In this document: positions 19,557-63,392 of the stretch, piece by piece
Numbering within the stretch: the first letter of the stretch is position 1
Layout: each line of letters opens with the position of its first letter
DNA from: Nitrososphaerota archaeon
GTDB lineage: Archaea; Thermoproteota; Nitrososphaeria; Nitrososphaerales; Gagatemarchaeaceae
Direction of reading: 5' to 3'
NCBI GenBank assembly: GCA_029785615.1
Contig: JAFLZH010000001.1
Span: 64,629 to 128,628, forward strand
Length of the DNA stretch: 64,000 nucleotides
Notes under the pieces: model-generated
What the model was told of the DNA's origin: nothing
The model's input: the letters and a program-made list of their open reading frames with translations, nothing else
Database searches by the model: none
Made by a program: the position numbers and the translations under genes

Positions 19557-19929
19557 GCTTGGGGATAGTCTGTTTTGGTATATCGACTAACTCCCACCCC
19601 CCAAGAGGGCGAGGGACTCGGGATCGCCTTCCACACCCTCTCACAATCAAGATAGCCGAGAGGCTCTCGGAACAGATCGCACGAATCCCCTTGATTCGGT
19701 TCCAGTCACCCGAGCCTAATTAGCCAGAATCAAGCTTATATCATCAAACAGGCCGCACAACTGGCCTATTAGAGCTGAGGTCGGTCTGACTCGAACGATA
19801 CACCGAGCTGGGGCTCACTCCGAGCTCTACAGCATGCTCATTCTGTCGGGCTAGTCCTTCCGAGGCCAGTCAATCCGATGGAATCAGCCCCCGATTATCA
19901 AACGGAGTTCATTCTAAGGTAATCGCGAA
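19557..19929. other. 373-bp gene-free stretch between the glycosylase gene and tRNA-Asn
   Basis: No gene seen. It holds the glycosylase promoter, an AT-richer segment near 19735 (AAGCTTATATCATC), att-arm copy D (19792-19819) and the proximal direct repeat that runs into the tRNA. Confidence 0.5.
19792..19819. repeat. Att-arm-like relic copy D
   Basis: CGAACGATACACCGAGCTGG resembles the arms of copies A and C. It is preceded by GGTCGGTCTGACTCGAAC, which recalls the T-arm of tRNA-Asn. Similarity is weak. Confidence 0.3.
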
Positions 19930-19941
19930 CGGCGACGGTCG
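19902..19941. repeat. Direct repeat of the tRNA-Asn 3' end, intact copy
   Basis: Pairs with 15943-15982 (37 of 40 identical). It comprises the terminal 12 nt of tRNA-Asn plus its 3' flank. Confidence 0.65.
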
Positions 19942-20025
19942 GACTCGAACCGACGGCCAATTGGTTAACAGCCAATTGCTCTACCACGCTCCCCGGCCGT
20001 TTCACGGCCTCTGAGCTACGTCGCC
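19930..20025 (-). tRNA. tRNA-Asn (GTT) with a 22-nt insertion in the D-loop
   Basis: Acceptor arms GGCGACG and CGTCGCC pair perfectly, with discriminator G. The anticodon stem ATTGG/CCAAT holds loop CTGTTAA (anticodon GTT), and the T-arm is GTCGG TTCGAGT CCGAC. The D-loop is 31 nt instead of about 9. Removing 22 nt (19989-20010) leaves AGCGTGGTA, a normal D-loop. The insert contains a perfect hairpin GGCCGT-GAA-ACGGCC, as expected of a non-canonical archaeal tRNA intron. Confidence 0.9.
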
Positions 20026-20902: not shown

Positions 20903-21009
20903 TGGGCCCGGCCGGATTTGAACTGGCGACCGACCGGTCTCTCCGAGCGGCTCCTATGAGCCGGTCGCTCTAACCGAACTTCTCGCAGGATGCTCTGAGC
21001 TACGGGCCC
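20903..21009 (-). tRNA. tRNA (CAT; Met elongator or Ile2) with two introns
   Basis: Acceptor arms GGGCCCG and CGGGCCC, discriminator A, anticodon stem ACCGG/CCGGT, anticodon CAT. Two extra segments break the gene. A 16-nt insert (20939-20954) follows position 37 in the anticodon loop, the canonical archaeal intron site. A 16-nt insert (20979-20994) lies in the D-loop; its removal gives AGTTCGGTTA. The T-stem has one A-C mismatch. GGGCCC acceptors occur in both archaeal tRNA-Met and tRNA-Ile2(CAU), so the isotype is open. Confidence 0.88.
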
Positions 21010-21454: not shown

Positions 21455-22624
21455 ATGTCGAAGCCTATCGTGACCTTCGCAGACTTCGCCAAGCGGATAG
21501 TCATCGTAATCCTGTTCCTTTTGCTTGTCCTGGTGGTGGTCGGCCTCCCAATCTACTATGTCATCGGCACCTACCTGCACCTTCCGGTCGACTTCGTCCA
21601 TATAGCCAGCAACCCGGGCCTTGTCTTGGCCTTCGTCCTCCGCCTCCTCTCCACCGAGCCGATCAAGACCCTCTTCGCTCTCGCAATATTCCCGGGTTTC
21701 TCGTTCGTGGCCATCTATGGGACCATATTGATGGGCTGGGTCGAGAGGAAGATGACTGCGAAGATCCAGCTCAGGACGGGTCCGATGTACGCCGGGAAGG
21801 TCGAAGGCATACTCCAGAACGTGGCTGACTTCCTCAAGCTCGCGTTCAAGGAGATGGTAATCCCCGACGGGGTGGACACGGCCACCTTTGTGGCCGTCCC
21901 CTTCGCCCTCATGGCTGTGGCAGGAGCCCTTGTGGCCCTGCTCCCGCTCTCCCCCACCGTCTTCATCGCCAACCCCTCGGTCGGCGCGATCCTGGTCTTC
22001 GCCATCCTGGGCTTCACCCCCCTGGTCGTCCTCGTCGCCGGGTGGGCCAGCAACAGCAAGTTCCCGTTCCTGGGGGGGCTGAGGGCGCTCCACCAACTGG
22101 TGGCCTACGAGATACCCATGATCCTCTCCCTGGTCGGGGTGGTGGTCCTGGCGGGCTCTCTGAACCTCATGGACATCGTCAACGCCCAGGCGGGGATCTG
22201 GTACATCATCCCTGAGTTCCTGGCCGCGGTGGTCTTCTACATCGGAGCCCTGGCTGAGCTCGAGCGGATCCCCTTCGACCTCCCCGAGGCTGACAGCGAG
22301 CTCGTGGCCGGGTGGCAGACAGAGTATACGAGCATGCTCTTCGGAAGCTTCCAGCTGGCGAACTTCACCAGGATGTACGTCATGGCCGGGCTCTTCACTA
22401 CCTTCTTCCTGGGCGGCTGGCTCGGGCCCGCCCCAGTCCCGCCTGTGGTATGGTTCCTGGTGAAGGTCACCATCGTGGACGTCTTCCTCATGCTCCCGCG
22501 AAGCATCATGCCCAGGCTAAGGATCGACATGCTTCTCAGGGCGGGCTGGGTGAAGCTCCTCGCGATCTCGTTCGCCAACATCTTCCTGACTATGGTCCTT
22601 GTTTCTCTGGGGGTAGTCCACTAG
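21455..22624 (+). CDS. nuoH: Complex I subunit NuoH
   Basis: 389-residue membrane subunit that contacts the quinone chamber. It has eight or more helices, GWVERKMTAKIQLRTGPMYAG after the first helices, and the hallmark ERIPFDLPEADSELVAGWQT. It is first in nuoH-I-J-K-M-L-M-N. The genes for the peripheral arm (A-D) are not adjacent; aIF1 precedes it. The stop codon overlaps the GTG of nuoI by one base. Confidence 0.97.
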   Translation: MSKPIVTFADFAKRIVIVILFLLLVLVVVGLPIYYVIGTYLHLPVDFVHIASNPGLVLAFVLRLLSTEPIKTLFALAIFPGFSFVAIYGTILMGWVERKMTAKIQLRTGPMYAGKVEGILQNVADFLKLAFKEMVIPDGVDTATFVAVPFALMAVAGALVALLPLSPTVFIANPSVGAILVFAILGFTPLVVLVAGWASNSKFPFLGGLRALHQLVAYEIPMILSLVGVVVLAGSLNLMDIVNAQAGIWYIIPEFLAAVVFYIGALAELERIPFDLPEADSELVAGWQTEYTSMLFGSFQLANFTRMYVMAGLFTTFFLGGWLGPAPVPPVVWFLVKVTIVDVFLMLPRSIMPRLRIDMLLRAGWVKLLAISFANIFLTMVLVSLGVVH

Positions 22625-24768
22625 TGGGGACCTGGGGCTACGTCAAAGGAGTGCTGGTGGCGACCTGGTCTGGAATCAGGCACTTCTTCCGCCCTCGGAT
22701 GACCCTCCGCTACCCTGAGCAGAAGCAGGACCTTGAGGGCCCCGGTTACAGGTATGACGCCCGCCAGGGGGTCGGGCTCCCCGGGTTCAAGGGGAGACAC
22801 GTACTCAGGTTCGAGAAGTGCACCGGGTGCCAGCTCTGCGCCATAGCCTGCGACGGGGTGGCGGTGGCCATAGAGATGCAGAAGGTCGAGAAGGGGAAGC
22901 CCCAGAACAAGAAGGAGATCTGGCCGGCCGTGGACTACGGCAGGTGCCTCCCTCCTTCCACGCCGATTACGACCATGGACGGGATCAGGCCTTTGTCAGA
23001 AATCAGGGTGGGCGACAAGGTCCTCACCCACACTGGCAAGTTCAGGAGAGTGACAAAGTTGTTCAGCAGGTCGTACACCGGGACCCTCTACACGTTCAGG
23101 ACGACAGGGAATCCCGAGCCTCTCACCACCACGGAAGACCACCCGATTCTGGTCTTCAGACACGGTGAGACTACGTGGTCTTTCGCGAACGAAGTTGAGA
23201 GGGGCGCATTCCTCACTCGACCTCTCATCTCGGACACCGTTCTTATGCGGCTGGGGCCGCACGCAAGTCTCTACTCCAAGGAGCCATTAGCTGAACCTGC
23301 TTCACGCGGAACTTCACCTGGAATGCAGCTGGAAACGTCTGGTATGGCCGTCTCGGAGGTGGTCAGCATCGAGACTGCGGAGGTTGAGGATTATCTCGTA
23401 CAGAATCTGGAGGTGGAAGCCGACAACAGTTACGTCGCAGCAAACCAGAGCGTACACAATTGCGTGTTCTGCGGCCTCTGCATAGAGCCCGACACTGACG
23501 TCGTCACCAACCCTGGCCTGAAGCAGATAAGCCGGCTGGCGATCGGCGACTTGGTGCTCACCCATTCCGGGGAATACAAACCCGTCACGAAGGTCTGGGA
23601 CATGACCTACACAGGCAGATACTATGGAATCCACGCATCCGGCAAGCCCGAGCCGCTCCGCTGCACCGCAGACCACCCCATAGTGGCAGTCCCAAGGCTC
23701 GCTTTGGACCGTAAAGGCAGGCGCCTCCTCGGGGCAACGGCCCCTCTGTCCTTCCACAAGCCCGGGGACCTCAAGGCCGGTGACTATCTTGTAAGCCCCA
23801 TCGTGAGGAAGGTCGTCCACGTCGACAGGTATGAGAATGACGTACCGACGAACGGAGGAGCCAAGGCAGCCCGCCGGCTCTCTCTTGACGCTACGCCAGA
23901 GCTCTTCCGGCTGATAGGCTACTACTTCTCTGAGGGTTCGTGCGACGGCGGCGGGAGGGTAAACTTCGACTTGAAGAAAGAGGGCGAGGCGTATGCCGAG
24001 GACTGTTCTTCGCTTGCTGCCCGGTTCTTTGGCGAAGGGTGCGAGCCGACGAAGAACGGACAGCACGGGCTGCGGTTCGTCCTGGGCTCGACCTTGGCTG
24101 AGGACTTCTTCTCCCAATTCGGCAGAGGAGCCTCCGACAAGAAGATGCCGGACTGGGTCTTCTTCGCCGAGCCTGAGAAGCAAGCTGAACTCCTGAGGGG
24201 CGGGTGGCAGGCAGACGGTCGCAGGGCGAGTCAGGCCGGGGAGAATGGTCTCGGCATCGTCACAGCTTCGAAAGTTCTCGCATTCCAGCTCCAGTCTGTC
24301 TATGCCAGGTTGGGGGTAGTCGCTACCGTAGATGCTCAAAGTTCGCCAGGTGAACCGGTGGCCTTCCAAGTCAACGTCTTTGGGCGTTGGGCTGCCAAGC
24401 TGGCGGGTCTGTGGAACGTGAAATTCGACTATAGCCCTTCGAAGCAGGCGGACAAGTTCCACATCGACGACAGGTACGTCTACCTCCCGATCAAGAAGAT
24501 CGAGGTCGAGGAGGTCGAGAACCATCGCGTCATGGACGTCACTGTGGAGGACGACCATACTTTCGCACCGCTCGGACTCGCCACCTCAAACTGCGTAGAC
24601 GCCTGCCCCTTCGACGCCCTCGACATGACCAACGACTACGAGCTGGCGGCCTATGACAAGATGAGCCTGAAGTACACGCCCGACATGCTCGCCGTCCCCC
24701 CGAAACTGGAGGGGAAGAAGTACAAGGTGAAGTTCGACACCGAGAAAGGGGTGGTCACCTACGACTGA
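22624..24768 (+). CDS. nuoI: Complex I subunit NuoI precursor, interrupted by two inteins
   Basis: A 714-residue precursor that after splicing would give a 171-residue ferredoxin-like NuoI, which carries two [4Fe-4S] clusters to the quinone site. N-extein 1-107 contains the first motif CTGCQLCAIAC, followed by Asp in place of the usual Pro. The second cluster motif CVFCGLCVDACP is assembled from three pieces: it starts at residue 280 (CVFCGL, only six residues) and resumes at 657 (CVDACPFDALDM). The start is GTG 22624, overlapping the nuoH stop; the frame is open further upstream, but only over nuoH. Confidence 0.95.
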   Translation: MGTWGYVKGVLVATWSGIRHFFRPRMTLRYPEQKQDLEGPGYRYDARQGVGLPGFKGRHVLRFEKCTGCQLCAIACDGVAVAIEMQKVEKGKPQNKKEIWPAVDYGRCLPPSTPITTMDGIRPLSEIRVGDKVLTHTGKFRRVTKLFSRSYTGTLYTFRTTGNPEPLTTTEDHPILVFRHGETTWSFANEVERGAFLTRPLISDTVLMRLGPHASLYSKEPLAEPASRGTSPGMQLETSGMAVSEVVSIETAEVEDYLVQNLEVEADNSYVAANQSVHNCVFCGLCIEPDTDVVTNPGLKQISRLAIGDLVLTHSGEYKPVTKVWDMTYTGRYYGIHASGKPEPLRCTADHPIVAVPRLALDRKGRRLLGATAPLSFHKPGDLKAGDYLVSPIVRKVVHVDRYENDVPTNGGAKAARRLSLDATPELFRLIGYYFSEGSCDGGGRVNFDLKKEGEAYAEDCSSLAARFFGEGCEPTKNGQHGLRFVLGSTLAEDFFSQFGRGASDKKMPDWVFFAEPEKQAELLRGGWQADGRRASQAGENGLGIVTASKVLAFQLQSVYARLGVVATVDAQSSPGEPVAFQVNVFGRWAAKLAGLWNVKFDYSPSKQADKFHIDDRYVYLPIKKIEVEEVENHRVMDVTVEDDHTFAPLGLATSNCVDACPFDALDMTNDYELAAYDKMSLKYTPDMLAVPPKLEGKKYKVKFDTEKGVVTYD
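22945..23460 (+). other. Intein 1 in NuoI (172-aa mini-intein)
   Basis: Residues 108-279. It begins with Cys (CLPPSTPITTMDG, block A), has a block B with TTTEDHPI, block F NLEVEADNSYVA, and ends SVHN before Cys+1 of the host (block G with His-Asn). There is no room for a homing endonuclease, so it is a mini-intein. It sits between DYGR and the first cysteine of the second [4Fe-4S] motif. Confidence 0.95.
23479..24591 (+). other. Intein 2 in NuoI (371 aa, with LAGLIDADG endonuclease domain)
   Basis: Residues 286-656. It begins with Cys (CIEPDTDVVTNPGLKQIS) and has block B CTADHPI. Endonuclease motifs are LFRLIGYYFSEGS and ELLRGGWQADG, with KKMPDWVF between. Block F is VTVEDDHTFAP and the end is ATSN before the host Cys. 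The penultimate residue is Ser rather than the usual His. It sits before the third cysteine of the second cluster motif, six residues after intein 1. Confidence 0.95.
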
Positions 24769-42685: not shown

Positions 42686-42795
42686 GCCCCGGTAGTATAG
42701 AGTCCGCAAGGGCGTAAAGCCCGGTCAAACCCAAAGTGTCGAGAGTATGCCGGCCTTTCGAGTCGGCGACCCGGGTTCGAATCCCGGCCGGGGCA
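42686..42795 (+). tRNA. tRNA-Glu (TTC) with about 35 extra nt in the D-loop
   Basis: Acceptor arms GCCCCGG and CCGGGGC, discriminator A; anticodon stem CCGGC/GTCGG with loop CTTTCGA (TTC); T-arm CCGGG TTCGAAT CCCGG. Between the D-stem halves GTAT and GTAT lie 46 nt instead of about 11. The normal core AGCCCGGTCAA can be recovered by removing two short pieces, one on each side of CCCGGTCAA, so there may be two introns; exact borders are uncertain. Confidence 0.88.
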
Positions 42796-63292: not shown

Positions 63293-63392
63293 TGCGGGGG
63301 ATGGGATTCGAACCCACGAACCCCTGAGGGAGGGGATCTCCACGAAAGGTCGCTTAAGTCCCCTGCTGTTGGCCAGGCTTAGCTACCCCCGC
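63293..63392 (-). tRNA. tRNA-Leu (TAA) with a 15-nt anticodon-loop intron
   Basis: Acceptor arms GCGGGGG and CCCCCGC, discriminator A; D-arm of normal size; anticodon stem GGGGA/TCCCC; loop CTTAAG then A, anticodon TAA. A 15-nt insert (63338-63352) follows position 37, the canonical archaeal intron site. The long variable arm and T-arm GTGGG TTCGAAT CCCAT agree with tRNA-Leu. Confidence 0.92.

Follow-up and report, generated by a model that had tools for sequence, protein, structure and literature searches.

Does a 107-nt gene with a CAU anticodon in an archaeal genome encode a tRNA that has to lose two introns, and how did the insert in its D-loop reach that site? The gene lies in a window of 64,000 nt (the whole stretch of DNA analyzed here) from a genome assembly of 1.39 Mb in 32 contigs that is 91% complete. 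The host, an uncultured member of the Nitrososphaerota, does not belong to the Thermoproteales. Our analyses leave us highly confident that this is a single functional tRNA gene, most likely for tRNA-Ile2. Its transcript would carry two separate archaeal tRNA introns, to be cut by an α2β2 EndA and joined by RtcB.

The CAU tRNA gene and its isotype

Both inserts measure 16 nt and lie in the D-loop and at 37/38 (Table 1), as the original prediction had it; intronless alleles bear this out for each site, and the strand, absent from that prediction, is the minus strand. The gene was missed by ARAGORN and by a window-level Rfam scan. Its 5′ part reads GGGCCCG UA GCUC AG, intron 1 AGCAUCCUGCGAGAAG, then UUCGGUUA GAGC G ACCGG CUCAUA; its 3′ part reads intron 2 GGAGCCGCUCGGAGAG, then A CCGGU CGGUC GCCAG UUCAAAU CCGGC CGGGCCC A. 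Intron 1 divides into A, GCAUCCUGC, GAGA and AG, intron 2 into G, GAGCCGCUC, GGAG and AG. Excision of both inserts leaves 75 nt and, as predicted, restores the cloverleaf, with the acceptor stem (7/7), D-stem (4/4) and anticodon stem (5/5) complete and a single A·C mismatch (52/62) in the T-stem. The mature Ile2 sequence predicted after splicing would contain CUCAGUUCGGUUAGAGC and CUCAUAACCGGU.

Table 1. Coordinates of the CAU tRNA gene, its parts and two further tRNA genes in the window
Feature	Position	Strand	Evidence
Pre-tRNA gene, CAU, probably tRNA-Ile2 (AUA-reading)	20903..21009	-	Rfam tRNA model, 44.2 bits in genome-wide search; acceptor GGGCCCG/CGGGCCC (7 bp), A73; orthologues in many congeners
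Exon 1, positions 1-15: acceptor 5′ strand, U8-A9, D-stem 10-13, A14 G15	20995..21009	-	Junction fixed by intronless alleles, CTCAG before and TTCGG after the site
Noncanonical intron 1, site 15/16, 16 nt, AGCATCCTGCGAGAAG	20979..20994	-	Precise absence in congeners; GAG pairs with C11-U12-C13; covarying inner hairpin
Exon 2, positions 16-37: remaining D-arm, anticodon-stem 5′ strand, CUCAUA	20955..20978	-	
Canonical intron 2, site 37/38, 16 nt, GGAGCCGCTCGGAGAG	20939..20954	-	1 + hairpin + 4 + 2 layout as in intron 1; order-wide at this site
Exon 3, positions 38-73: anticodon-stem 3′ strand, variable loop, T-arm (A52·C62 mismatch), acceptor 3′ strand, A73	20903..20938	-	
tRNA-Asn(GUU), 96 nt, neighbour	19930..20025	-	15/16 intron at 19989-20010, 22 nt; acceptor GGCGACG/CGUCGCC restored; hairpin GGCCG/CGGCC; GGG pairs with C11-U12-C13
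tRNA-Glu(UUC), 110 nt	42686..42795	+	15/16 intron AGTCCGCAAGGGCGTAAAG (found by scan); probable second D-arm intron near 22/23 (by eye)

The T-stem mismatch might point to a degenerate tRNA pseudogene with acquired insertions. We consider this hardly conceivable, as no other full-length match to this tRNA turned up in the genome, the exons of the gene are conserved throughout the genus, its acceptor and anticodon stems are fully paired and stem covariation is seen (ACCGG/CCGGU, UUCGG/CCGAA, UCCGG/CCGGA). The A52·C62 mismatch itself recurs in several relatives (L026, L032, L035, L036, L038) and is A-U or G-C in other congeners; it may be a tolerated A+·C pair or be altered by a base change after transcription.

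Three features point to tRNA-Ile2, namely the acceptor sequence GGGCCCG, A73 and the presence of TiaS among the genes of this organism. In tRNA-Ile2 (CAU), C34 is modified to agmatidine by TiaS. The tRNA set of this genome, gathered by search and from short stretches, is incomplete, and no tRNA-Met was found in it for contrast. The tRNA is probably tRNA-Ile2, with Met as the alternative. A pattern search for further CAU tRNAs gave mostly chance matches.

NuoH is encoded beside the CAU tRNA gene; the protein is 100% identical to that of archaeon isolate YP3.bin16, and its other close matches carry the labels Nitrososphaerota, Thaumarchaeota or Nitrososphaerales, in keeping with the lineage of the host. 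In the complex I cluster (window positions 22312-24768, plus strand), a NuoI-like ferredoxin gene seems to hold two inteins, with Hint and intein-splicing domains followed by a second element with LAGLIDADG, and with a conserved host Cys motif after each.

Intronless alleles and intron variation among relatives

The D-loop site is empty, with matching exons, in the congeners G005 (L044), G020 (L047), G007 (L048), G011 (L051) and G026 (L154), where the alleles read CTCAG directly followed by TTCGG, or a near variant. In G034 (L162), which belongs to the same family, it is the 37/38 site that is empty, reading CGGCTCATAACCGGTCGG, and the D-loop intron is retained; L052 likewise lacks the 37/38 intron. 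From these precise intronless alleles with matching exons it follows that both inserts are removable units and have not arisen by chance, and that the two introns are gained and lost independently. The junction at 15/16 is unambiguous, since the introns of L038, L040 and L041 end in AAA or CAA.

Ile2 genes of the family have 15/16 filled, empty, or replaced by an intron at 22/23 (L042, L043). Three introns interrupt L050 (15/16, 22/23 and 37/38); in L054 a third lies in the variable region. Outside the family, L157 shows an intron at about 22/23, and in L159 and L161, from other families of the order, one lies at about 9/10, between the acceptor and the D-stem (all placed by eye). The anticodon intron occupies 37/38 across the order.

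In the relatives, the D-loop intron varies in sequence and measures 15-22 nt, and the anticodon intron, where there is one, is mostly 14-16 nt long. The equal size of 16 nt, which the original prediction had singled out as notable, is hence a coincidence. It might otherwise be explained if the D-loop intron had recently been copied from the gene's own anticodon intron, and the exon string GCUCA as well as the layout of 1 nt, hairpin, 4 nt and 2 nt are indeed common to both sites. Such copying nevertheless appears improbable to us: beyond the constrained GAG..AG the two introns align poorly (score 0.6), their lengths differ in relatives, and in G034 (L162) the D-loop intron stands without an anticodon intron. 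More similar is the 15/16 intron that tRNA-Lys(CTT) carries in G005, a likeness that suggests same-site homology between isotypes but is inflated by shared constraints.

Pairing of both introns with exon bases

Introns at 15/16 have a common layout, which consists of 1 nt, a hairpin, 3 nt that pair with D-stem positions 11-13, 1 nt facing G10, and A plus G, A or C before the cut. For the pairing test we used 26 distinct 15/16 introns of five isotypes (20 Ile2, 3 Arg-CCT, and one each of Ile-GAT, Lys-CTT and Pro-TGG), all with a junction that is set by an isotype-matched allele lacking the intron. In 26/26 of them, full pairing with D-stem 11-13 was seen for the triplet at -6 to -4, and the other nine offsets gave 0-4. 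Shared descent accounts for part of this signal in Ile2. Outside Ile2, the triplet matches its own D-stem in Arg-CCT (D-stem CGC, triplet GCG) and Pro-TGG (GCU/GGC), and also, with junctions set by eye, in Gly-TCC (UCC/GGA), Glu-TTC (UAU/GUA) and Lys-TTT (CUU/GAG). The inner hairpin of Ile2 shows compensatory changes at pair 2 (C-G, U-A, G-C) and pair 3 (C-G, A-U, U-A, G-U). In a set of 23 introns, which partly overlaps the 26 and is not an independent test because we placed the junctions of its five non-Ile2 isotypes by eye, inner pairs totaled 65, where 5000 shuffles averaged 11 and reached at most 25; central pairs came to 69/69, with a shuffle mean of 32 and at most 45. A junction-free scan that favored a 9-nt D-loop had placed some junctions off by one base and split the triplet signal between -7 and -6; it was replaced by the allele-fixed junctions.

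An exon-intron central helix flanked by bulges that hold the cuts is thus found by comparative pairing at the D-loop site in 26/26. In the genome of the window, G10 is mismatched with A and there is no convincing outer helix, so the motif falls short of the strict hBHBh′ form, with its 4-bp central helix and outer helix, and is a relaxed bulge-helix-bulge. The relaxed forms hBH, HBh′ and BHL are also recognized among archaeal tRNA introns (PMC6379350). The D-loop insert would hence fit an intron of the relaxed bulge-helix-bulge type that recruits the 5′ strand of the D-stem as its pairing partner. This layout recurs in the anticodon intron, where loop bases 32-35 take the place of the D-stem. 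In L032 all four pairs are formed (CUCA/UGAG). The intron of the window has three pairs and an outer helix, and deviates from strict hBHBh′ by an A35·G mismatch; in both of its introns the mismatch, G10·A or A35·G, lies at the far end of the central helix.

Folding energies tell a different story. The bulge-helix-bulge is not the minimum-energy fold of the precursor, a feature that would be supporting rather than required. Taken alone, the anticodon segment prefers GGCUC/GAGCC (-13.0 versus -7.3 kcal/mol for the bulge-helix-bulge), the isolated D segment gains no stability over its shuffles (z 0.30), and even for the spliced sequence in isolation the minimum-energy fold is not the cloverleaf. 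We dropped minimum-energy folding as proof of the motif, since the isolated segments prefer other folds. Support for the putative motif is comparative, and thermodynamics alone gives none.

Could the D-loop insert instead be an enlarged D-loop that is kept in the mature tRNA, with the 37/38 insert as the sole intron? A hairpin could be tolerated there, and the bulge-helix-bulge is not forced by minimum-energy folding. We regard this as very improbable, however, as orthologues of the same genus with matching exons lack the insert exactly at 15/16, its conserved triplet competes with the 3′ strand of the D-stem (26/26), and inserts of the same layout occur at 15/16 in several unrelated isotypes.

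With two introns, the precursor would form a hairpin in each, and the next four nucleotides would pair with those exon bases that directly precede the splice site, namely D-stem 10-13 for the D-loop intron (strongly at 11-13) and loop bases 32-35 for the anticodon intron. Two nucleotides, usually AG, would stand before the 3′ cut. Since the motif occupies one side of the D-stem, its 5′ strand, this stem would form fully only after removal of intron 1.

Splicing enzymes encoded in the genome

A heteromeric splicing endonuclease had been anticipated, and the genome encodes two PF01974 proteins that agree with this. The first (L024, EndA alpha, 185 aa) matches the EndA of A. pernix (3p1z_B, 3e-42); it retains the catalytic His and Lys, and its K40 aligns with the loop lysine K44 of the A. 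pernix enzyme. This K44 was tied to a broad substrate range (PMC6379350). In the second (L025, EndA beta), the alignment shows Ala at the position of the catalytic His. We thus find a catalytic alpha subunit with Tyr/His/Lys and a noncatalytic beta subunit in separate genes, which would fit an α2β2 splicing endonuclease, the EndA type reported for Thaumarchaeota (PMC4090602). An RtcB ligase gene is also present. The positions of the inserts, the clean intronless alleles, the covariation and the genes for both subunits and the ligase can be read directly from the DNA, and on these we base the assumption that the α2β2 endonuclease would cut both introns and RtcB would ligate the exons; the order of these events and the aminoacylation of the product are likewise inferred.

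Position 15/16 as a frequent intron site

Most tRNA genes recovered from the genome exceed the length of a mature tRNA, and several have two introns. Introns at 15/16 interrupt Ile2-CAU, Asn-GTT, Lys-TTT, Arg-TCT, Arg-GCG, Gly-TCC and Glu-TTC; part of this set comes from a scan that used pairing as a search condition and hence is not an independent test of it. Two nearly complete congeners add Pro-TGG, a second Pro (CGG), Arg-CCT and Lys-CTT (G005) as well as Ile-GAT (G015). The site is a hot spot, used by 11-12 isoacceptors in the genus. In the neighboring tRNA-Asn, ARAGORN (19929-19999) and Rfam (19930-19998) both took part of the intron for the 5′ acceptor strand and misplaced the 5′ end, which really lies at 20025. 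As ARAGORN missed Ile2 and mis-bounded Asn, tools of this kind call too few tRNAs in such genomes. Elsewhere in the window, tRNA-Leu(UAA) (63293-63392, minus strand) has an anticodon-loop intron.

The 15/16 intron of tRNA-Lys(CTT) in G005 (L236/L181), AGCAGGAAAATCCTGCGAGAAG, equals that of the Ile2 gene in the window save for one 6-nt gap, and the Ile2 gene of G005 itself has no 15/16 intron. The likeness may reflect movement of an intron from one isotype to another, or constraints common to both.

In an RpoB tree built from 29 genomes, where several forks are poorly supported, the Ile2 15/16 intron requires 5 changes against a shuffled mean of 7.9. It is found in early-branching family members, and three outgroup families lack it. 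A single gain at the family's base, followed by several losses, agrees with this pattern; repeated gain may be an alternative history. Tentatively, and with somewhat more doubt than conviction, we suggest that 15/16 is a preferred intron entry site in this family, where one layout matched to the D-stem has spread to about a dozen isoacceptors and is still gained and precisely lost between congeners.

Relation to known systems and significance

Multi-intron tRNAs are best documented in the Thermoproteales. There, Pyrobaculum and Thermofilum have multi-intron pre-tRNAs with small introns at canonical and noncanonical sites and an (αβ)2 EndA (PMC8450103, PMC4090602, PMC3218864). The gene described here likewise belongs to tRNAs with several small introns at both kinds of site, but in a different lineage, the Nitrososphaerota. 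The original prediction had held such tRNAs to be rare outside Thermoproteales-like lineages. Multi-intron tRNAs are already on record in Thaumarchaeota, and PMC8450103 reports 107 noncanonical introns for Thaumarchaeota/Nitrososphaerota, the phylum of our organism, and a clade-specific bulge-helix-bulge model. In Caldiarchaeum subterraneum, multi-intron tRNAs with introns in the D-, V- and T-arms show presence and absence at the population level (PMC3293823). The example there, a tRNA-Thr with introns at 24/25 and 45/46, is tied to a mobile element (PMC3293823), whereas Ile2 in the window has 15/16 and 37/38. Since multiple and noncanonical introns are thus known from Thermoproteales, Thaumarchaeota and Caldiarchaeum, the mechanism is not new.

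As noncanonical positions, PMC4090602 lists 20/21, 22/23, 25/26 and others, ending in "etc.", and does not name 15/16. The accessible portion of the literature on archaeal tRNA introns contained no description of this uncultured family or of its 15/16 hot spot. The site is under-described, and we do not claim novelty of the position. If our tentative reading is true, the spread of 15/16 introns would be a second, independent burst of tRNA introns outside the Thermoproteales. With many sequenced congeners, in which the same tRNA site is filled, empty or shifted (15/16 versus 22/23), the genus offers a good natural system for the study of tRNA-intron gain and loss.
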